Source: a virus
Length of the DNA: 30,034 nucleotides
IMG/VR virus record: IMGVR_UViG_3300012964_000043
Location: 1 to 30,034 of that record
Direction: 5' to 3' (one strand)
Part shown: positions 15,626 to 30,030 of the stretch, piece after piece
Numbering within the stretch: position 1 is the stretch's first letter
Layout of the letters: each line of letters starts with the position of its first letter
Position numbers and translations under genes: made by a program
Notes under the pieces: model-generated
Told to the model about the DNA's origin: nothing
The model's input: only the letters and a program-made list of their open reading frames with translations
Database searches by the model: none

Positions 15626-17368
15626 TTACCCGATCACCCTCGCCCTCGCCGCCGGCTCGCTCGCCGACACGATGAACGTCCCCAGCATCTCCAGCGCCGC
15701 GCGGTCGTAGTTGACGGCGTGGCGATAGTGGTCCGGCTTTCCGCCCTCGCGGTACACGGCGCGTTTGTTGCCGTCGGGTGCGTCCTCCAGGACGCGAACT
15801 GGCGCCGTCATGTGATTGTAGTACTCGGGGATCTCGCGGGCATTCGCCGGCAGCAGGTCCCGGCATTCGAGGATGTCCTGGCCCGATACGTCAAGCGAGG
15901 CCGTCCGGTCCAGCTTTATAACGCGGCTCGCCGGCCAGTCAGGCCCCTCCTTGAGCCAACCGGCGCCGCGGGGGTGCGTATCGTACTCAGCGAGAAAGAC
16001 GCGGCCGGGGAAGCGGGCGGCGAAGTCTTCCGTAGCCCGCGTCTCCGGCAAATGGTCTACGACCATCGCGCGGACTTTGTACCGCGCCATCAGTTCGGCT
16101 ACCTCGTCGAACGTGTCAAGCGTACCGATAAAGACGGCCTTGCGAACCGTCGCACCGGCGGCCGTGTCGCCCGTTACCTCCGAGACGCGGACGTGAAGCC
16201 GGGCGCCGACGTCGACGCCAGCGGTGCAGGCGGCATCGTTCACCGACGGCATCAGGTACCCGTCGAGGCAGCAGCGGTCCAACATCGCGTAGTCGACCCG
16301 GGCCCCCTTCGGCGTGTACGGCTCGCCGAGGTCGAAGTTGTAGAAATCTTCGGTCTTCGTAGGGTTGCCGATTGCCTTGAGGTACGTGCATACGAGCTCG
16401 GCGACAGCATTCGTGCTGCTCATCAGTTTCGAGATCTTAAACCCTGGGACGACGCTCCGGAGGTTCTGCGGCGTCCACCGCCCGGACGCCAGCCGCTCGA
16501 GCGGCGCGCCGCACGCCTTGCAGTACACGTTTACGTCGCGCCCGAGTTCGGCGAGAAGCCAATCCCACTCCAGCTCCTTTGGGTCCGTAACGCCAGCCAA
16601 GACCGCTGCGGCGTCCGTATCCCGCGGCTGCCTATCCTCGGGGTTAGCGAATACGTCGCCGAAGAACCGCATCTCCTGGTACTCACCACACACCGGGCAA
16701 GGCACCTCCCAGAAGCGCCGGTCGCTCTTGAGATACTCGGCGTTGATGCCGAGCTCGTCGATCGTGGGCGTCGATACCTGCTGCATCCCCTTGTAGCTCG
16801 AGTGCCCGAGCCGGCGGTCTACTTTGCCCAAGTGTTCTTGTTCGCAGAAGTCGAGCTCGTCGATTATCACGTTGTCGATCGGCGCCGCCAACACGTCGAG
16901 GACAGTCTTTGAGCCAGCGAAGTAAACGGCGCCGTCACCGATATGCTTCAGTCCTACCTGGTCGCGCGCCTTCGTTACCAACTCGCCGTCCTTATGGCGC
17001 ACTGCCGCTTTTATGCTGGGGCTGTCGTTTATCGCCCGGTCCACGCGGTCCGCGACGAACTTCGCGAGCTGGTGTTGGGCGGGGAAGAGGTAGAGGACGC
17101 GTAGCGCGTGCTCTTTCGCCAGCCAGAACGCCAAGCAGATAAGCCATGTCGAGACGCCGCACTGCGCTGACTTCTGGACGACGATCCGCCGGCTCCGGCA
17201 AGCGTAGATTTCGCGCAAGTACTCGTGGCCGTCGAAGCGGAACGGCCTGCGCTCGAGCCGGAAGTTCGCGAGCGCCCAGAGGGCAAGGTTCGCGCGGATG
17301 CGCTGTCTAACCAGCGCCCTCGCTAGTGCCTGTCTGTCCGGCGACGATAATTTTTTCGATAACTGCAT
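15626..17368 (-). CDS. terL: Terminase large subunit (GpA-type)
   Basis: The protein is 580 aa. It has a Walker A-like VVQKSAQCGVSTW (about 63-75), a Q-motif-like YLFPAQHQLAKFVADRV, and Walker B NVIIDELDF (166-174). A zinc-knuckle region, PCPVCGEYQEMRF followed by CKACGAPLERL, is characteristic of the GpA family (PF05876). The C-terminal nuclease half has AACTAGVDVGARLHVRV, with the first catalytic Asp, and MVVDHLPETRATEDFAARF. The enzyme cuts and translocates DNA into the prohead. It overlaps the small subunit by 62 nt; the start is not certain but no better ATG is close. Confidence 0.93.
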   Translation of the reverse strand: MQLSKKLSSPDRQALARALVRQRIRANLALWALANFRLERRPFRFDGHEYLREIYACRSRRIVVQKSAQCGVSTWLICLAFWLAKEHALRVLYLFPAQHQLAKFVADRVDRAINDSPSIKAAVRHKDGELVTKARDQVGLKHIGDGAVYFAGSKTVLDVLAAPIDNVIIDELDFCEQEHLGKVDRRLGHSSYKGMQQVSTPTIDELGINAEYLKSDRRFWEVPCPVCGEYQEMRFFGDVFANPEDRQPRDTDAAAVLAGVTDPKELEWDWLLAELGRDVNVYCKACGAPLERLASGRWTPQNLRSVVPGFKISKLMSSTNAVAELVCTYLKAIGNPTKTEDFYNFDLGEPYTPKGARVDYAMLDRCCLDGYLMPSVNDAACTAGVDVGARLHVRVSEVTGDTAAGATVRKAVFIGTLDTFDEVAELMARYKVRAMVVDHLPETRATEDFAARFPGRVFLAEYDTHPRGAGWLKEGPDWPASRVIKLDRTASLDVSGQDILECRDLLPANAREIPEYYNHMTAPVRVLEDAPDGNKRAVYREGGKPDHYRHAVNYDRAALEMLGTFIVSASEPAARARVIG

Positions 17369-17834
17369 CGAGTACCTGTTTTGTTTCCTCGCCTAATCCG
17401 ATTTCAAGGTATTTCGTAACTTCGCTGTGTACGTCGGCGTTAACATCGACCTGGTTCGTCGCCAACCCGAGCGCCTGGCGTTCAACGTCCGTGGTGTTCT
17501 TAAGGGCTTTAGATAAACGCTCGATGTCGAGCGTATTCGGACTCGCGGCGACGAGAAGCCGTTGGAGCTTTTTCGTTATCGCCCCGCGAATGCCGCGCGC
17601 CACTTCGAAGTGTCCCTTAACGGCTTTCGCCATTTCGCGGGCGCGCCAGGTGTCGGTTTTTTCGGTCGCTTTTTCGACAGTTTTTTGACGGCGTTCTTTC
17701 CAACCGTATTTTTCGATCCAGTCGCCAACGGTTCGGGCGCGTTTGATTTTTAACGCCCTAGCGATCTGTTCCTGCGTCTTACCGTCGCAGTAAAGCGCGA
17801 ATGCCTTTTCTCTCGTTTTGGTTTTGTAACCCAT
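17307..17834 (-). CDS. terS: Terminase small subunit
   Basis: The 175-aa protein has an N-terminal helix-turn-helix of the type seen in phage small terminases (CDGKTQEQIARALKIKRART, then VGDWIEKYGWKERRQKT). A helical oligomerisation region follows, and the C-terminal tail (IGLGEETKQVLDAVIEKIIV) could contact the large subunit. It recognises the packaging site and directs the large subunit. It directly precedes terL and follows a 23-bp pure A/T run. No clear Shine-Dalgarno is seen before the ATG (CGAG only). Confidence 0.86.
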   Translation of the reverse strand: MGYKTKTREKAFALYCDGKTQEQIARALKIKRARTVGDWIEKYGWKERRQKTVEKATEKTDTWRAREMAKAVKGHFEVARGIRGAITKKLQRLLVAASPNTLDIERLSKALKNTTDVERQALGLATNQVDVNADVHSEVTKYLEIGLGEETKQVLDAVIEKIIVAGQTGTSEGAG

Positions 17835-17891: not shown

Positions 17892-18788
17892 CTATCGGGA
17901 TAACCCATACACTAGCTCGTTTAATTCCTTGCTTTTAATCTCCGGCGCAACCTGGACCAATTTCATGCCGTATTCGTCCGTCCGCCTCCCAGCCAAGTTA
18001 ATCCCGCGTTTTAACTTCAAGCGCGTTTTAAACGGTTTCCATGCATCCTTCACGTAATGCTGCGGCCTTCCGTATCTTCGCCCCGTCGTCACGACTCCAG
18101 GCCACAGCCTTTCGAGCGAACGAGCCATTTTCAATCGGCCGTCGGCCTTGTATAAATCGTCCGTATTGCCGCCCTTCATGGTCATCGTGCGCATCTTATC
18201 TATAAGAAACGCGTTAACTAAAACAGTACACCACCCCCCGGATAAGACCTGCAAGCACAAATCCGTGTCTTCGTTGTACCGCCCCCGCCATCTATATGGC
18301 AGCTTATTATTAATTAATAAACATGAATATACGTGATTGTTGAGATAAAAGGGCGCCATCTTGTTCGTTTCCGGCGCGAACATCTTGTACTGCAACCCCG
18401 AAATACCGATGTTCTCGTAACGATCCGTAAAATCCTCGACGATCGCTAACCCTATCCCGCTATCGCAACGAATGCGCTTGCCCTTGTACCGCCTGTATAC
18501 CGCACGTATATTGTCGTCCAATATCCAGTGGCGTTCGTGCCCCTTACCCAACGCATCCTCCCACACCCAATTACGCGCCGGGACCGACCCCAAGCCGAGG
18601 TTGCTGAACGGTAGTATCGCGACCCATTTCGGGTCAAATGCCGCCGCGTAATCGTCGTATTCCTGCGGCTCCACGACCAACGTGAACGGTACTCCCTCTT
18701 TGACGAACATCTTCGCCGTGAGGCAGTTTTCAAAACGGCCTTTTGATATAACGTATACGGGGTAACGCGGTAGTCGTTTCTTGCTCAC
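17892..18788 (-). CDS. TET-associated DNA base glycosyltransferase (TAGT family)
   Basis: The protein is 298 aa from the GTG at 18788 (AAGGA 5 nt upstream). It has the TAGT signature: YPVYVISKGRFENCLTAKMF, VPFTLVVEPQEYDDYAA, LGLGSVPARNWVWEDAL, then HERHWILDDNIRAVYRR, with DDN at 91-93 as the GT-A metal/nucleotide-sugar motif, and RYNEDTDLCLQVL (EDTD 173-176). TAGT enzymes are known from phage neighbourhoods where they glycosylate oxidised 5-methylpyrimidines made by TET/JBP-like dioxygenases. The gene is locally more AT-rich than neighbours (for example near 18304-18321), suggesting later acquisition. No TET or C5-cytosine methylase is seen here, so the base substrate is open. Confidence 0.88.
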   Translation of the reverse strand: MSKKRLPRYPVYVISKGRFENCLTAKMFVKEGVPFTLVVEPQEYDDYAAAFDPKWVAILPFSNLGLGSVPARNWVWEDALGKGHERHWILDDNIRAVYRRYKGKRIRCDSGIGLAIVEDFTDRYENIGISGLQYKMFAPETNKMAPFYLNNHVYSCLLINNKLPYRWRGRYNEDTDLCLQVLSGGWCTVLVNAFLIDKMRTMTMKGGNTDDLYKADGRLKMARSLERLWPGVVTTGRRYGRPQHYVKDAWKPFKTRLKLKRGINLAGRRTDEYGMKLVQVAPEIKSKELNELVYGLSR

Positions 18789-18790
18789 GA

Positions 18791-19489
18791 TTATCCTTCG
18801 AACCTCAAGGCTTTAAAATCTTGTCGGTCCTTGGGCGGCCACCACGCGCTATACGTATTGCTGTGCCGCGTAAAAGAAAATTCCTTCTTAAATTTTTTCA
18901 TAAAATTATCCCTGTCGGCTTCGTTTCTAAAACGAATAATTATCTGCTTAAATTTTTCGCCCGGTTCATATTCGGGTAAACCCACCCAGGCGGCAGCGGC
19001 ATCCAAATCGCCGATTTCTTCTTCAGTACGAGTTATTAATACTAGATTAGCGAGCATCATCTCGTCGTAACCCGTCCCCAAAAGGCCCACCTCGTCGCTG
19101 TCCTTAATCTCCTTCAATAAGTCGGCCAACTCGCGGTCGTTGATTTCGGCTAGGTGGCGGAGCTCGTTGTCGCCCGTGAGAACTTTAAGCGCCGCCGGCG
19201 AGTCGGATTTTACGTTAAGCCGAACCACCGGAACCTTCGTCATCCCCTCTTTTTTCGCCGCCATCACGACGCCGTGGCCGGCGAGGATCGTCCCATCTCT
19301 CGCGATGATTATATTGCGATAGATACCGTGCTGCCGAATGCTCTGGACGATGTGCTCGACCTGGTCGTCGGGGTGCTCTACGTAATTTCGCGGATGCGGT
19401 TTAAGGTCGGCAACGTTGACTATTTCGATTTGGAATTTACGGCGTTTCGAGCGGACGACCTTCCGGCCGTTCGGCTTTTTGGGAGCCAC
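18791..19489 (-). CDS. ParB-domain protein paired with TAGT
   Basis: The 232-aa protein starts at GTG 19489 with GGAGAAGAGG just upstream. Its ParB/Srx-fold core spans about 20-115, with VADLKPHPRNYVEHPDDQVE, SIRQHGIYRNIIIARDGTIL and AGHGVVMAAKKEGMTKVPVV. After it come the usual GDNELRHLAEINDRELADLL helices and a small C-terminal domain ending HSNTYSAWWPPKDRQDF, seen in other phage ParB-domain proteins. Such proteins may bind DNA, act as nucleases, or act as CTPases or kinases; which one cannot be read here. It sits 2 nt upstream of the TAGT gene, so a shared role in base hypermodification is likely. Confidence 0.85.
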   Translation of the reverse strand: MAPKKPNGRKVVRSKRRKFQIEIVNVADLKPHPRNYVEHPDDQVEHIVQSIRQHGIYRNIIIARDGTILAGHGVVMAAKKEGMTKVPVVRLNVKSDSPAALKVLTGDNELRHLAEINDRELADLLKEIKDSDEVGLLGTGYDEMMLANLVLITRTEEEIGDLDAAAAWVGLPEYEPGEKFKQIIIRFRNEADRDNFMKKFKKEFSFTRHSNTYSAWWPPKDRQDFKALRFEG

Positions 19490-19539
19490 GACCTCTTCTC
19501 CGTTGACCGCTCCGGCGCCCCGTGCTACCCTGACCGCAA

Positions 19540-19629
19540 CCCACGCGTGGGCCAGGGGCGGGCGGCGGCCTTGCGGCCGGTCTGGGGTCCGTTATACCCC
19601 GTGACGCGGAGGCGAGGTTGCGACTCGCC
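19540..19629 (-). ncRNA. Run of hairpins in the leader of the ParB-TAGT operon
   Basis: Within 90 bases there are four stem-loops: a 12-bp palindrome CCCACGCGTGGG (19540-19551), CGGCC/GGCCG around a GNRA-like loop (19566-19579), GGGG/CCCC (19584-19600), and GGCGAG/CTCGCC (19611-19629). They lie in the 273-base gap between the HTH and ParB genes, about 50 bases upstream of the ParB start. This could be a structured 5' leader, a small RNA or a protein-binding (pac or regulator) site. It is not a recognisable tRNA or known riboswitch. The function is inference. Confidence 0.4.
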
Positions 19630-19651
19630 AAAACCCGCTTGTCCCGCTATC

Positions 19652-19714
19652 AAAGAGCGTCCGTGCTTCAGGCTATTACCGCTTACATTAAGCCTTTAGC
19701 ACAGGGCGCTCTTT
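19652..19714. repeat. Long imperfect inverted repeat
   Basis: A left arm at 19652-19674 and a right arm at 19691-19714 pair over about 19 bp, with one mismatch, one bulge and a small internal loop; the outer 8 bp are AAAGAGCG/CGCTCTTT and the inner 5 and 4 bp are GTGCT/AGCAC and GGCT/AGCC. The 16-nt loop is flanked by TAAT. The right arm contains the candidate -10 hexamer of the promoter listed next. It may be a weak bidirectional terminator, an operator, or a structured RNA formed only by read-through transcripts. Confidence 0.6.
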
Positions 19715-19721
19715 CTGTCAA
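19693..19721 (-). promoter_or_regulatory. Candidate sigma-70-like promoter for ParB-TAGT-terminase genes
   Basis: On the minus strand TTGACA (19721-19716, perfect -35) is followed after 17 bp by TAAAGG (19698-19693) preceded by TG-C, an extended -10. The -10 matches the consensus only partly. It points to the ParB gene, and the predicted start of RNA would be near 19686, inside the loop of the inverted repeat. Confidence 0.55.
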
Positions 19722-19746
19722 ATCGGGGAGGGTGTTTTAGGGGGGT

Positions 19747-19784
19747 ACGTTATATGGACGTTTTATACACGTTTGGGGTACGTT
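19747..19784 (-). repeat. Four AACGT boxes at exact 11-bp spacing (candidate operator array)
   Basis: On the plus strand ACGTT occurs at 19747, 19758, 19769 and 19780. The outer two are extended to GGGGTACGTT. The 11-bp period places all four on one face of the helix. The array covers the last codons of the small HTH gene and ends about 25 bp upstream of the TTGACA. This resembles the direct-repeat arrays bound by small excisionase or repressor proteins, and the adjacent 71-aa HTH protein is the obvious candidate binder. Confidence 0.65.
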
Positions 19785-19978
19785 TTAGTACCTTTTGATA
19801 CCCTTTTTCGCAGCCACGTATCTATATCCTCTTTCAAGGCCCGGGCGCGGCCGTCCTCGTCTATCGAAACCGGCAACCCATAACGTCGCGCCTTCCGTTT
19901 CGCCACCCGGTCGGAACACCCGAGGTAAGCGCCGATCTCCTTCCAACCGACGAGAACGTTCGAGCCGTTACCCGCCAT
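19763..19978 (-). CDS. Small helix-turn-helix DNA-binding protein (excisionase/MerR-like)
   Basis: The 71-aa protein starts MAGNGSNVLVGWKEIGAYLG, followed by CSDRVAKRKARRYGLPV, which together form a winged HTH of the excisionase/HTH_17 type: 'GWKEIGAYLG-S-R-A-R--R-GLP'. A wing-like ALKEDIDTWLRKRVSKG ends it. Such proteins bind phased direct repeats as regulators or recombination directionality factors. No integrase is in this window, so a regulatory role is more likely. The gene overlaps the upstream methyltransferase by 11 nt and its end overlaps the AACGT array. Confidence 0.82.
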   Translation of the reverse strand: MAGNGSNVLVGWKEIGAYLGCSDRVAKRKARRYGLPVSIDEDGRARALKEDIDTWLRKRVSKGTKTYPKRV

Positions 19979-20585
19979 GGCGCCCCCTCTTTTCGAACAC
20001 CCAAAAATAGCAGTGATACTTGCGGGCGTGGACCTGCTTATAGAGGTTATATTGGATCGGGCGACTCTTAGCGAGGAGGATAAAAAGATCGCGCGGCCGA
20101 AACCCGACCGCCCGGGCCATATCGTGGATCATCACGTGGACGAAGGCGTTGTGCCGGCCGTCGACGATATCCTGGCACTTGAAGTAAAGGATGCCGCCCG
20201 GGTGAAGGACCCGGTATATTTCCGCCATAGCTTCAACGTAAAATTCCACCAAGTCCTTTATCTGACCGGGTACGGTCGAATATTTTTTGGCCATCGTACT
20301 GTCCCGGCGCCGGGCCGTAAACGCACCGTACAGGAACGGTGGGTCAAACATCACGGACCCGACCGCGGCGTCGCTTAACGGTAGCCAGCGGACGTCGGCC
20401 GCCACGACTCCGCGGCGCCGGGGCGCGATGTCGAACATCAGCCGCGGTGGCTCGAGCGTATAGCGGTAGAACATACCCCGGCCGCAAGTGACATCGCACT
20501 CGATAACGCCGCCCGAGTGCAACCCCACCATCGACGCCAAAAGCTCGTCCTGATCGTCGTAAACAGATTTAACAAGCCGGGTCAT
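19968..20585 (-). CDS. DNA methyltransferase-like, N6-adenine/N4-cytosine type (DPPF)
   Basis: The protein is 205 aa from the ATG at 20585 (MTRLVKSVYDDQDELLASMV), chosen because the longer frame to 20645 overlaps the ATPase gene. It has a motif I-like IECDVTCGRGMFY (about 29-41), an acidic turn (MFDIAP), and motif IV VMFDPPFLYGAF. DPPF is the catalytic motif of amino-methyltransferases acting on adenine or cytosine N4. A GGILYFKCQDIVDGRHNAF strand-helix follows. There is no endonuclease partner, so it is an orphan modification enzyme, perhaps protecting phage DNA. Confidence 0.8.
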   Translation of the reverse strand: MTRLVKSVYDDQDELLASMVGLHSGGVIECDVTCGRGMFYRYTLEPPRLMFDIAPRRRGVVAADVRWLPLSDAAVGSVMFDPPFLYGAFTARRRDSTMAKKYSTVPGQIKDLVEFYVEAMAEIYRVLHPGGILYFKCQDIVDGRHNAFVHVMIHDMARAVGFRPRDLFILLAKSRPIQYNLYKQVHARKYHCYFWVFEKRGRHGG

Positions 20586-20592
20586 TTTTTTC

Positions 20593-22311
20593 TTAGAATA
20601 GCTCCCCGCTCGCGCGTACCATTCCCCGCGCCGGCGACGTAACAAGTTGCCTTGACCGAAGTCGTTTCAGATAGGTATTCTTGCTCGTCTCCTTGTATCC
20701 CGTTTCGTTTTTAACCATCTCGTGCGTCACCGAATTAGGATAGGCGGCGACGATAACCTCAAGGCACTTTCGTTCTCCCGCTGGTAGTCTTTGCCGCCAA
20801 TATTCGAGTAATGCCGCACCCGTGGGCAACGATTCGAATGTGGCGCCGAGTACCGCGAGGCCCGCTTCCGTTACTTTTATAGGATCGCGCCCATCGATTA
20901 ATCCTTTACTGCGTAAAAGCTTTAAATAAGTAGTGCGCGATGTCGGCCGGTATCCCGTAAGCACAGCTAACTGCGCTTGTGTCACACCGGCGACGTATTG
21001 CGCGATGGCCGTTAGTACCTTCCGTTCGCCGGCTTTTATCTCGTTATCTCCCTCTTCGTTCACTGCGGCCCGGGCGGCCGGGACCTCCCGCACCGCCGGC
21101 GTAGACGGTCGAGCCGGAGCCGACCGCGGCGTTGGACATCCGTCGGTTTTCGCCGTCGCTGCCGCTATCGTCGCCATCGCCCGCTCGAGCGCGGCTTTTT
21201 GGGCGTTGAGAACCGCTTCCAAATCGTAGGCGACGGAAGCCAACGCCATCTTCGTCTCGACGGTCGCCTTCTCGAACGCTTTAAGGTCTGCGTCGAGCAC
21301 TATCGGGACCTCGACGTGCTCGACCTTCGGCTCGGGCGTCGCCGCCGTCTTCCGCTTGTTCAGTTCGCGCTCGAGCTCCGTTATCCGCCGGCGAAGCACG
21401 GCCGGGTCGGACGCCTGTTGCCGCTCGATAGCCGCGGCGAGTCGGCTCTGGAGGATTTCGGGGTCGATACGAGCGAACGCCCGCGGCTGCACCCGCCGCT
21501 CGCCTGGCGTCGGCGTCGCCGAGCTATTGAACGTGTGGCGCTCGCGCACGTGTATCCGCTTGAAAAGGTCGAGCCACCCCGCACTCATCACCCAGGCGTC
21601 GCCCTTCGGGAGCTTCGCCAGCGAGGCCTCCACGTCGCGCATCTGTTCCGGCGTGGCGTGTACCTTCATCCACTCGAGCACGGGCGCCCGGTCGCGCGGG
21701 TGCGTCGTCCGGAGAACGATAAGGACCTCCGTTTGCGTAAGGACGTCCTTGTTCAGGACGGCGGACCGTTGAGTTACGAGGGTACACCCCAGCCCCCGTA
21801 TGCGACCCCGGCGCACGATCTCGTCTATCGCCCCGAGCATCCGCATCTCGTCCGGCCGCGGCTTCTGGGGCGCGAATGCGTCGGCCTCGTCGATGATGAG
21901 GTGCAGCGGTTCGCGGTTTTTCTCGTATAGCCGCTCCGCGAAGTCGGCGACGAATCGGCGCATCGCGCTCTTCGACAGGCGCGACAGGTCGATAACGAGC
22001 GGCGGCGCGTCCTCCGCGAGCATATCAGCGATGACCTTCCCGGCTGTTTCCTCCAGTGGCGCATCAGCGTGGTCGCCGCCGATAATCATCACCGGGTAGC
22101 CCTCTCCCTTCCCGTCCGCCGTCGCGCGGAGACCCCACCAGGCCCCCGTGGGGTCCAGAACCGCGAAGGGCAAACCCGCGTTGCAGAACTCTTCGGCGAG
22201 GACGGATGCCGTATAGGTCTTGCCGACGCCCCGCATCGCAAGGATCGCGAACGTCTGCGTGACGGCTTCTAACGGGAGTTTTAGGATAGAGGATATTCGT
22301 AGTCTTTTCAT
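20593..22311 (-). CDS. HerA/DUF87-like ATPase fused to tandem winged helices
   Basis: The protein is 572 aa. The N-terminal P-loop domain has MRGVGKTYTASVLAEEF (Walker A about 27-33), LPFAVLDPTGAWWGLR, and Walker B LHLIIDEADAFAPQ (136-149), followed by GLGCTLVTQRSAVLN, an arrangement seen in HerA-like DNA translocases. A helical coiled-coil-like region lies at about 300-400. The C-terminus holds two similar winged-helix units, each with GERK..L, then TGY..TS..TYLK.LRS (about 427-470 and 507-560). The ATPase could move or open DNA, with the C-terminal units providing sequence recognition. No NurA nuclease partner is seen. An ATGA overlap links it to the resolvase. Confidence 0.85.
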   Translation of the reverse strand: MKRLRISSILKLPLEAVTQTFAILAMRGVGKTYTASVLAEEFCNAGLPFAVLDPTGAWWGLRATADGKGEGYPVMIIGGDHADAPLEETAGKVIADMLAEDAPPLVIDLSRLSKSAMRRFVADFAERLYEKNREPLHLIIDEADAFAPQKPRPDEMRMLGAIDEIVRRGRIRGLGCTLVTQRSAVLNKDVLTQTEVLIVLRTTHPRDRAPVLEWMKVHATPEQMRDVEASLAKLPKGDAWVMSAGWLDLFKRIHVRERHTFNSSATPTPGERRVQPRAFARIDPEILQSRLAAAIERQQASDPAVLRRRITELERELNKRKTAATPEPKVEHVEVPIVLDADLKAFEKATVETKMALASVAYDLEAVLNAQKAALERAMATIAAATAKTDGCPTPRSAPARPSTPAVREVPAARAAVNEEGDNEIKAGERKVLTAIAQYVAGVTQAQLAVLTGYRPTSRTTYLKLLRSKGLIDGRDPIKVTEAGLAVLGATFESLPTGAALLEYWRQRLPAGERKCLEVIVAAYPNSVTHEMVKNETGYKETSKNTYLKRLRSRQLVTSPARGMVRASGELF

Positions 22312-28778: not shown

Positions 28779-29608
28779 GGTATGCTCCCTTGTCCCCCAA
28801 ACTTCAAGTTCGGCGCGACTTGAACTTCGGCTAGCCGCCGCGCGATCGGATCTGCCTCGTCGCCGAATCTTTCCCGGAGTTTCTCCTCGAAGTCGTAGTT
28901 GGTCGTAATGAGCAGCACGCCGCCGCGCTCGAAAGACCGCAGTAAGCGGATGTAATGGCCTTCGACGACGCCCCCCGGCTTTATTCGCTCGTTGCCAAAG
29001 TCGTCAATAACAACGAGGTCGTTGTTGCGGAAGTCGTCGATGTACGTTTGCACATCCTCAACCGAAATCGCCCGGCGCTCGACGCCGAAACAGAAATCCT
29101 GAGAGTTGACGAACGCGGCCGTCCGTTTCGCGTCCGTAACGGCACGGATGGCGGCGACGGCAATGTAAGTTTTGCCGGTACCCGTCTCGCCCTCGAATAT
29201 CAACACGCCTCCTTTACCCGCGAGCACGGTGTCGACGAGCTTCTGGGCGGCCTCAAGCGCCTCCACTTTGTAAGGGACGTGGCGGTGAACTCCCTCGAAA
29301 CGCGCGGCCGCGAGCGGCCGAGGAAGGTTGCGGACCGCGGCGTGGAACCGCCGCTCCCGGGCCTTAAAATCCAAGCAACTGCAGGGGCTCGCGAACGTCA
29401 CCGCGTACCCGCCGGCCTCGGCCCTTTCGAAACCGCGTTCTTCGGCCCGCGTCATCTCCCCCGGTTCGATGCCGAAGTGCCGGCAAAACTCTTCCGCGGT
29501 CCGGAACTCAAAAACTACTACGCCGGCATCGAGGCACTTCGGGCAGACGTCCGGGTCTTCTTCGCAAACGTGCTCGGGCAATTTGTAACTATCCGCGATC
29601 TGTTCCAC
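28763..29608 (-). CDS. DnaC-type AAA+ helicase loader
   Basis: The protein is 281 aa. The N-terminal region has a Cys cluster, C22-x2-C25 and CSC at 76-78, probably binding zinc. The AAA+ core has Walker A GETGTGKTYIA (140-150), Walker B NDLVVIDDFGNERI (196-209), and sensor I region LLITTNYDFEEKLRERF. A late IARRLAEVQ holds the likely Arg finger. Members load the replicative helicase at the origin. It overlaps the replisome-organizer-like gene by 20 nt, and the pair forms the replication-initiation module. Confidence 0.92.
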   Translation of the reverse strand: MEQIADSYKLPEHVCEEDPDVCPKCLDAGVVVFEFRTAEEFCRHFGIEPGEMTRAEERGFERAEAGGYAVTFASPCSCLDFKARERRFHAAVRNLPRPLAAARFEGVHRHVPYKVEALEAAQKLVDTVLAGKGGVLIFEGETGTGKTYIAVAAIRAVTDAKRTAAFVNSQDFCFGVERRAISVEDVQTYIDDFRNNDLVVIDDFGNERIKPGGVVEGHYIRLLRSFERGGVLLITTNYDFEEKLRERFGDEADPIARRLAEVQVAPNLKFGGQGSIPWTSS

Positions 29609-29942
29609 GGCTCAAAAACCTCCTTCCGCCGCCGACCTTGCCCGTATGGCGGGTACTTCCGGAGACTATCGGCCCGGGCAAGAACTGCTCGACCTTCGCG
29701 CCTTCGCCCCGCGAGAGGAACACGTCCAGGGTCCAGCCGCGTTTACGCTCTCGCCAGTCGACCCAAAACCCGTCCGTCGAGTCGCCGTAATTCCGGATTG
29801 CCGCACAGATCTCGTCGACGGAGTACGTTTTAAGACGGGCGGATACGCCTTTCCGCATCGCCGTTGTAAACGCGCGGTGCTTCGGTTTAATTTTCGGGTG
29901 CGCGTTCCACTCGTCGAAAATCCGTTGTTCTTCGGCTTTCAT
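29589..29942 (-). CDS. Replisome organizer C-terminal-domain-like protein
   Basis: The 117-aa protein begins MKAEEQRIFDEWNAHPKIKP, followed by RKGVSARLKTYSVDEICAAI, FWVDWRERKRGWTLDVFLSR and VEQFLPGP. This matches the C-terminal domain of phage replication-initiation (replisome organizer) proteins, which contacts the helicase loader. Here the domain appears alone; the usual N-terminal winged helix is missing. GAGGGA lies 4 nt before the ATG. It is the first gene after the right-edge leader. Confidence 0.72.
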   Translation of the reverse strand: MKAEEQRIFDEWNAHPKIKPKHRAFTTAMRKGVSARLKTYSVDEICAAIRNYGDSTDGFWVDWRERKRGWTLDVFLSRGEGAKVEQFLPGPIVSGSTRHTGKVGGGRRFLSRGTDRG

Positions 29943-29966
29943 TTTTCCCTCGCGTGCGCCCTTTCG

Positions 29967-29996
29967 TTTTGTATGTTTTTCTTTTGTATGTTTTTC
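29967..29996. repeat. Perfect tandem 15-bp direct repeat upstream of the replication genes
   Basis: The unit TTTTGTATGTTTTTC occurs twice back to back (29967-29981 and 29982-29996). On the transcribed strand it is A-rich (GAAAAACATACAAAA). It lies between the right-edge inverted repeat and the first early gene. It may be part of a leader, a regulator-binding array, or a small iteron-like element next to the replication genes. Confidence 0.7.
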
Positions 29997-30008
29997 TTTT
30001 ATAATGTA

Positions 30009-30030
30009 GGGTAAACGATTTCGTTTACCC
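30009..30030. promoter_or_regulatory. Perfect inverted repeat (candidate operator) over the early promoter
   Basis: GGGTAAACGA (30009-30018) and TCGTTTACCC (30021-30030) are exact 10-bp arms separated by TT. On the minus strand it is followed within 5 bases by TATAAA (30003-29998), a possible -10 for the early genes, with the -35 position falling inside the repeat. This is the layout of a repressor operator. The arms have no U-tract after them, so it is not a terminator. Confidence 0.65.

Follow-up and report, generated by a model that had tools for sequence, protein, structure and literature searches.

The locus analysed here raises a simple question: what, if anything, reads a row of four identical short boxes that borders the longest non-coding gap among the gene models of a 30-kb virus fragment? 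In the window, by which we mean the whole stretch of 30,034 nucleotides, ACGTT occurs on the plus strand at 19747, 19758, 19769 and 19780, giving four ACGTT boxes separated by N6, with a period of exactly 11 bp, or one helical turn (span 19747–19784). The first-pass annotation had described both this period and an extension of the outer two boxes, and exact pattern matching bore out each point: the extended box GGGGTACGTT is found in the window at 19742 and 19775 only, with 33 bp between the copies. The composite GGGGTACGTT-N23-GGGGTACGTT was present in no other viral contig.

We considered the possibility that the array is a chance repeat without function. ACGTT as such is no commoner in the window than expected (68 copies versus 67.9). 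When the window was simulated 60 times with a second-order Markov model and searched for any k-mer at any period from 8 to 24 bp, one equal array appeared in total; window-wide odds of about 1 in 60 are not astronomical. By contrast, local tests were stronger. No other 5-mer in the window occurs in four copies at one period within 8–24 bp, and the array has the highest four-unit periodic identity of the window at periods of 7–24 bp. That identity was reached in 0.25% of first-order Markov trials with the local base composition (periods 7–24), and an exact fourfold 5-mer was reached in none of 3,000 such trials. Its location, too, speaks against coincidence: the array borders the largest intergenic gap and has a winged-HTH gene and a TTGACA as neighbours. 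Being the sole 5-mer of its kind, with one case in 60 simulated windows and with these local tests, the array is unlikely to be due to chance, and a functionless repeat is a very improbable account of it. Positions 19763–19784 code for the last six residues and the stop codon of the HTH protein; because 11 bp is not a multiple of three, the array does not simply mirror a repeat in the protein.

The main genes of the fragment lie on the minus strand. From right to left they encode DnaD-like and DnaC-like proteins, a large ParB, a RuvC-like resolvase, a HerA-like ATPase, a methyltransferase and the 71-aa HTH protein; after the gap follow ParB-like, TET-associated glycosyltransferase (TAGT), small and large terminase, portal and head, tail sheath and tape measure genes (Table 1). 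At 273 bp, the gap is the longest without an ORF among the gene models, the larger apparent gaps containing ORFs, and it has replication, recombination and methyltransferase genes on one side and genes for modification, packaging and the head on the other. The array at its edge thus stands before the ParB-like, glycosyltransferase, terminase and structural genes, in agreement with the earlier proposal that it faces modification genes. The annotation had also placed the array between the HTH gene and a TTGACA; the exact TTGACA does lie downstream, whereas the array is not separate from the HTH gene but overlaps its 3′ end. No match to TET/JBP was found in the record.

Table 1 Features of the array and its surroundings (window coordinates)
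Feature	Position	Strand	Basis
Four exact ACGTT boxes (AACGT on the minus strand), 11-bp period	19747..19784	.	Pattern match, simulations
Extended box GGGGTACGTT, copies 1 and 2	19742..19751; 19775-19784	+	Window search
Two degenerate units (CCTTTT at 19791 and 19802); 11-bp phasing of T/A-tracts kept, ACG lost	19785..19812	.	
Standalone winged HTH, 71 aa (HTH_17/excisionase-like)	19763..19978	-	Profiles, predicted fold
DNA methyltransferase, overlaps HTH gene start	19968..20645	-	phrog_24333, E 1.6e-53
Non-coding gap from HTH gene to ParB-like gene, 273 bp	19490..19762	.	Gene models
Candidate -35, TTGACA (exact), about 25 bp downstream of array	19716..19721	-	
Candidate weak -10, TAAAGG (3/6 match), 17-bp spacer	19693..19698	-	
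Imperfect inverted repeat/hairpin, 63 nt, starts beside -35	19652..19714	-	MFE -29.2, z -3.9
ParB-like (ParB_N), first gene of downstream run	18791..19489	-	Family matches
TAGT, next to ParB-like gene	17892..18788	-	E 5.5e-45
Terminase small subunit (probable)	17307..17834	-	Family matches
Terminase large subunit, GpA type	15626..17368	-	Family matches

Two further elements were seen at the far end of the window. A perfect palindrome, GGGTAAACGA-TT-TCGTTTACCC, occupies positions 30009–30030, adjoining TATAAA and ahead of the early genes; it is the only one in the window with 10-bp arms and a short spacer and is probably an early operator. A 15-bp unit, TTTCTTTTGTATGTT, is present in 2.5 copies at 29962–30000, directly upstream of the DnaD-like gene.

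The gene that the array overlaps had been described as encoding a small HTH protein, and the predicted fold agrees with this. A single-sequence model (pLDDT 77) gave a winged HTH (wHTH) with helices at residues 12–19, 23–33 and 49–62 and a beta wing; it contains no coiled coil, and the chain ends after the wHTH. As modelled from this single sequence, the protein has the size and fold of a BldC-type regulator, that is, a standalone wHTH of about 70 aa. Its match to the HTH_17 profile was weak and below the cut-off, and PHROG 66 (excisionase and transcriptional regulator) matched with an E value of 2e-4. The best matches among solved structures were BldC–DNA complexes (Z 6.8, 6ama), RdfS (5.7), Pukovnik Xis (5.5) and P2 Cox (5.4); the packaging-motor entries 7lwr (6.3) and 7lxs (5.8) and the packaging redirector 6hn7 (6.8) also matched. 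These Z scores of 5.4–6.8 all fall in the range where a common fold reveals no function, and a phmmer search of PDB sequences with the 71-aa protein matched no BldC chain.

The resemblance to Xis- and Cox-type wHTH folds (Z 5.4–5.7 to RdfS, Pukovnik Xis and P2 Cox), together with the PHROG 66 match, would suit a reading of the boxes as the arm repeats of an attachment site for an excisionase, or recombination directionality factor. RdfS-type wHTH recombination directionality factors are small and oligomeric and are also transcription regulators (PMC11963761), but RdfS itself is without a consensus repeat. Here, no tyrosine or serine recombinase was found in the record, a 30-kb fragment, and the array lies amid lytic genes. 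We therefore regard an attachment site as the least probable of the explanations considered.

In line with the earlier suggestion, binding of phased direct repeats by wHTH proteins is documented (PMC5859096, PMC9304148). BldC of Streptomyces, a protein of 68 aa, binds head-to-tail to direct repeats made of an AT-rich tract, 4 bp and a C (PMC5859096). Like the 71-aa protein, it is a standalone wHTH of similar size, and it is the closest match to the predicted fold; its operators, like the array, combine AT-rich tracts with a spaced C in direct repeats, and its head-to-tail binding is cooperative. However, the BldC repeat is 9 bp long rather than 11 bp, which counts against the operator reading set out below, the identity in the structural alignment is 14–15%, and BldC acts in development, not in a phage; by this analogy, binding by the 71-aa protein is a proposal. 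The 9-bp spacing of BldC operators is replaced here by a period of 11 bp, and three of the four units, as read from the sequence, have a spacing of the TATA-TGGA-C type. The MerR-type domain of CarH provides a second precedent, in which three or four tandem 11-bp repeats are bound at the −35 (PMC9304148). Tandem 11-bp repeats near a −35 are also what we found here, with the array 25 bp upstream and not overlapping the −35. By contrast, a B12-binding oligomerisation domain is part of CarH, whose consensus is nnnnTnnACAn, whereas the protein here is a bare wHTH and the box is ACGTT; the boxes read ACG, and the T of the consensus is rightly placed in two of four units. With head-to-tail BldC repeats and 11-bp CarH repeats both known, an operator at this site would be mechanistically ordinary.

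The periodicity is not confined to the exact boxes. Phased T/A-tracts run two units past the array, to about 19812, making six T-runs in all. Both AA-wedge models (10.5 and 11 bp) place this segment at the top of the window for curvature, a fuller dinucleotide model with manually entered parameter values places it second, and its simple curvature score was reached by about 0.1% or fewer of local shuffles. One possible explanation is that the phased A-tracts simply bend the DNA, as in an UP-like element, and that ACGT is read by no specific protein. Curvature by itself could account for the phasing, which counts against an operator. However, ACG precedes four of the six phased T-runs compared with 3% of T-runs window-wide, and the chance that four of six share a preceding trinucleotide is about 5e-4 for any trinucleotide. 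This argues for sequence-specific content beyond the A-tracts. An exact pentamer is, moreover, unnecessary for curvature. A-tract phasing alone thus does not explain the ACGTT boxes, and we consider a purely structural element quite unlikely.

We favour the reading that the array is a promoter-proximal operator bound by the 71-aa wHTH protein, which would activate the late and modification genes, and we put the probability of this model as a whole at roughly 0.4. The model starts from the observed repeats, their spacing and phasing, and the gene order, together with the predicted wHTH fold; from these we infer binding of the protein at this site, use of the TTGACA, the timing of the genes, and activation rather than repression. 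The wHTH protein would coat the array head-to-tail with one protomer per 11-bp unit, in the manner of BldC and CarH, each protomer making major-groove contacts to ACG(T) and contacts to the next A/T-tract through its narrowed minor groove. Centred at about −63, −74, −85 and −96, with the degenerate units at −107 and −118, the boxes would place a row of protein that bends the pre-curved DNA just upstream of the TTGACA and so brings RNA polymerase to a promoter whose −10 is poor. The ParB-like, glycosyltransferase, terminase and structural genes would then be turned on after the early genes. Activation is suggested by the position of the array upstream of the −35 and by the poor −10, and it is the weakest step of the model.

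The layout resembles that of a late-operon activator in geometry only, the site lying between the activator gene and the late promoter and upstream of the −35. A sigma-70 promoter scan called no promoter at TTGACA/TAAAGG, and this result and the poor −10 both count against the operator model. Protein p4 of phi29, acting at the late promoter A3 (PMC3100819), is similar in that the A-tract-rich DNA read by this small early protein lies upstream of a late promoter with a faulty element, but p4 binds inverted repeats with an N-hook, and A3 is without a good −35, whereas the promoter here is without a good −10. An independent parallel for a late promoter with an 11-bp array comes from two contigs found as methyltransferase relatives (L036:8541-8620 and L038:9412-9490), in which four TTCGCT boxes (TTCGCT-N5) at 11 bp run into TTGAAG-17-TATAAT, a promoter directly ahead of the small terminase gene (TerS-TerL). 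The first-pass annotation had gone further and proposed an autoregulated switch. That proposal did not hold up: the array follows the HTH gene, at its 3′ end, and there is no second array in the window and none upstream of the HTH operon, which leaves autoregulation unsupported.

We then asked how the gene and the array are distributed. The HTH protein had no relatives in viral contigs or named phages, and a genome scan returned only host Acidobacteriota proteins, in which the domain is fused to long chains and arrays are absent. Searches found no close relatives that keep the HTH gene, no relatives of the large terminase and no DNA similarity to named phages; the HerA-like gene had one relative, with a neighbourhood not in common. 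The ParB–TAGT pair is common, but its relatives are without the HTH gene, and none of the loci listed has an 11-bp array upstream of the pair, so that the absence of both elements from these relatives counts against the operator model. So does the finding that, among 40 small HTH_17 genes of Acidobacteriota, one was flanked by an exact array at period 11 (and none at other periods). A search for HTH_17 next to the arrays of viral contigs with this ACGTT pattern gave any match in only 7 of 33 records. In one Acidobacteriota genome, an exact 11-bp array (CCTCGCGCACT; L115:1233-1278) precedes an HTH_17 gene by about 370 bp, and an integrase-like ORF follows that gene.

Those 33 viral contigs carry the same four-box ACGTT array with an 11-bp period, and in at least 14 of them it lies inside a gene of a replication-initiation, primosomal, DnaD-like or replisome-organiser family (L003, L004, L008, L009, L010, L011, L014, L017, L021, L022, L024, L026, L027 and L029). 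The count is a lower bound over the 33: the first ten genes were chosen for their initiator look, a second ten gave three more, and L024 was included through sequence in common with L004. The families represented are DUF1376, Phage_rep_org_N, DnaD-like and O-like, and the arrays encode peptide repeats, for example NGRSTNVQRTF. The ACGTT arrays in these initiator genes are probably origin iterons. In L008, array and initiator gene overlap at the 3′ end of the gene, just as array and HTH gene do here. A control pattern with a 13-bp period occurred in 13 contigs, none of which was apparently initiator-borne when judged by eye.

With at least 14 of 33 arrays in initiator genes and, by eye, 0 of 13 for the control, replication-origin iterons are a serious rival to the operator. 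A phage initiator, either the 71-aa wHTH protein or another, would bind the boxes and open the adjacent DNA, and the 63-nt hairpin, which matched no Rfam family, would possibly be a single-strand initiation site. Since the DnaD-like protein (29589-29942) covers only part of its family profile, a domain that binds the origin could lie elsewhere. Although the ACGTT core and the 11-bp period are common to the 14 contigs, the array here lies outside the replication region, at a wHTH gene that precedes those for modification and packaging. The DnaD-like and DnaC-like genes are about 9 kb away, the array adjoins the packaging and structural run, the overlapping gene encodes a wHTH only, and the GC skew makes no turn at the array. 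We consider an origin at this site possible but doubtful.

Arrays of ACGTT boxes also occur near terminase genes. Four boxes with a 13-bp period and variable spacers are kept in four contigs (L126:4187-4230, L136, L137 and L138), 87 bp upstream of an apparent terminase gene. These arrays and a periodic ACGTT array in L006, taken with the fold matches to 7lwr, 7lxs and 6hn7 and the GpA-type large terminase, are consistent with a packaging recognition site (cos or pac), at which the small wHTH protein would mark the cut site ahead of the terminase genes. However, the fragment has a separate small terminase gene beside the large one, and two genes intervene between the small terminase gene and the array, making a packaging site distinctly unlikely.

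Position and distribution point in different directions. The place of the array, beside the only large gap, ahead of modification and packaging genes and upstream of a −35, speaks for a promoter operator, whereas the population of equal arrays in other contigs favours an origin; elsewhere, ACGTT arrays with an 11-bp period are found most often within replication-initiator genes and not at late promoters, which counts against the operator. In favour of the operator count a real and phased array, its ACG content, its position beside the gap, the predicted wHTH fold, the BldC and CarH precedents and the arrays of L036 and L038.

The array is real and well placed, but regulatory or replication repeats are already known and it is a variant of these. 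A more far-reaching possibility, which we think unlikely, is that a bare BldC-like wHTH protein without an oligomerisation domain polymerises on curved 11-bp-repeat DNA to time the glycosylation and packaging genes, and that the ACGTT/11-bp code, shared with the iterons of unrelated phages, might couple replication and late transcription. If the operator reading is right, the locus would be a short, testable case of a phage using a minimal DNA-binding protein to delay its genes for DNA hypermodification and packaging. As a side result, the 11-bp ACGTT array in the initiator genes of many uncultivated phages offers a simple sequence marker for predicting phage origins.
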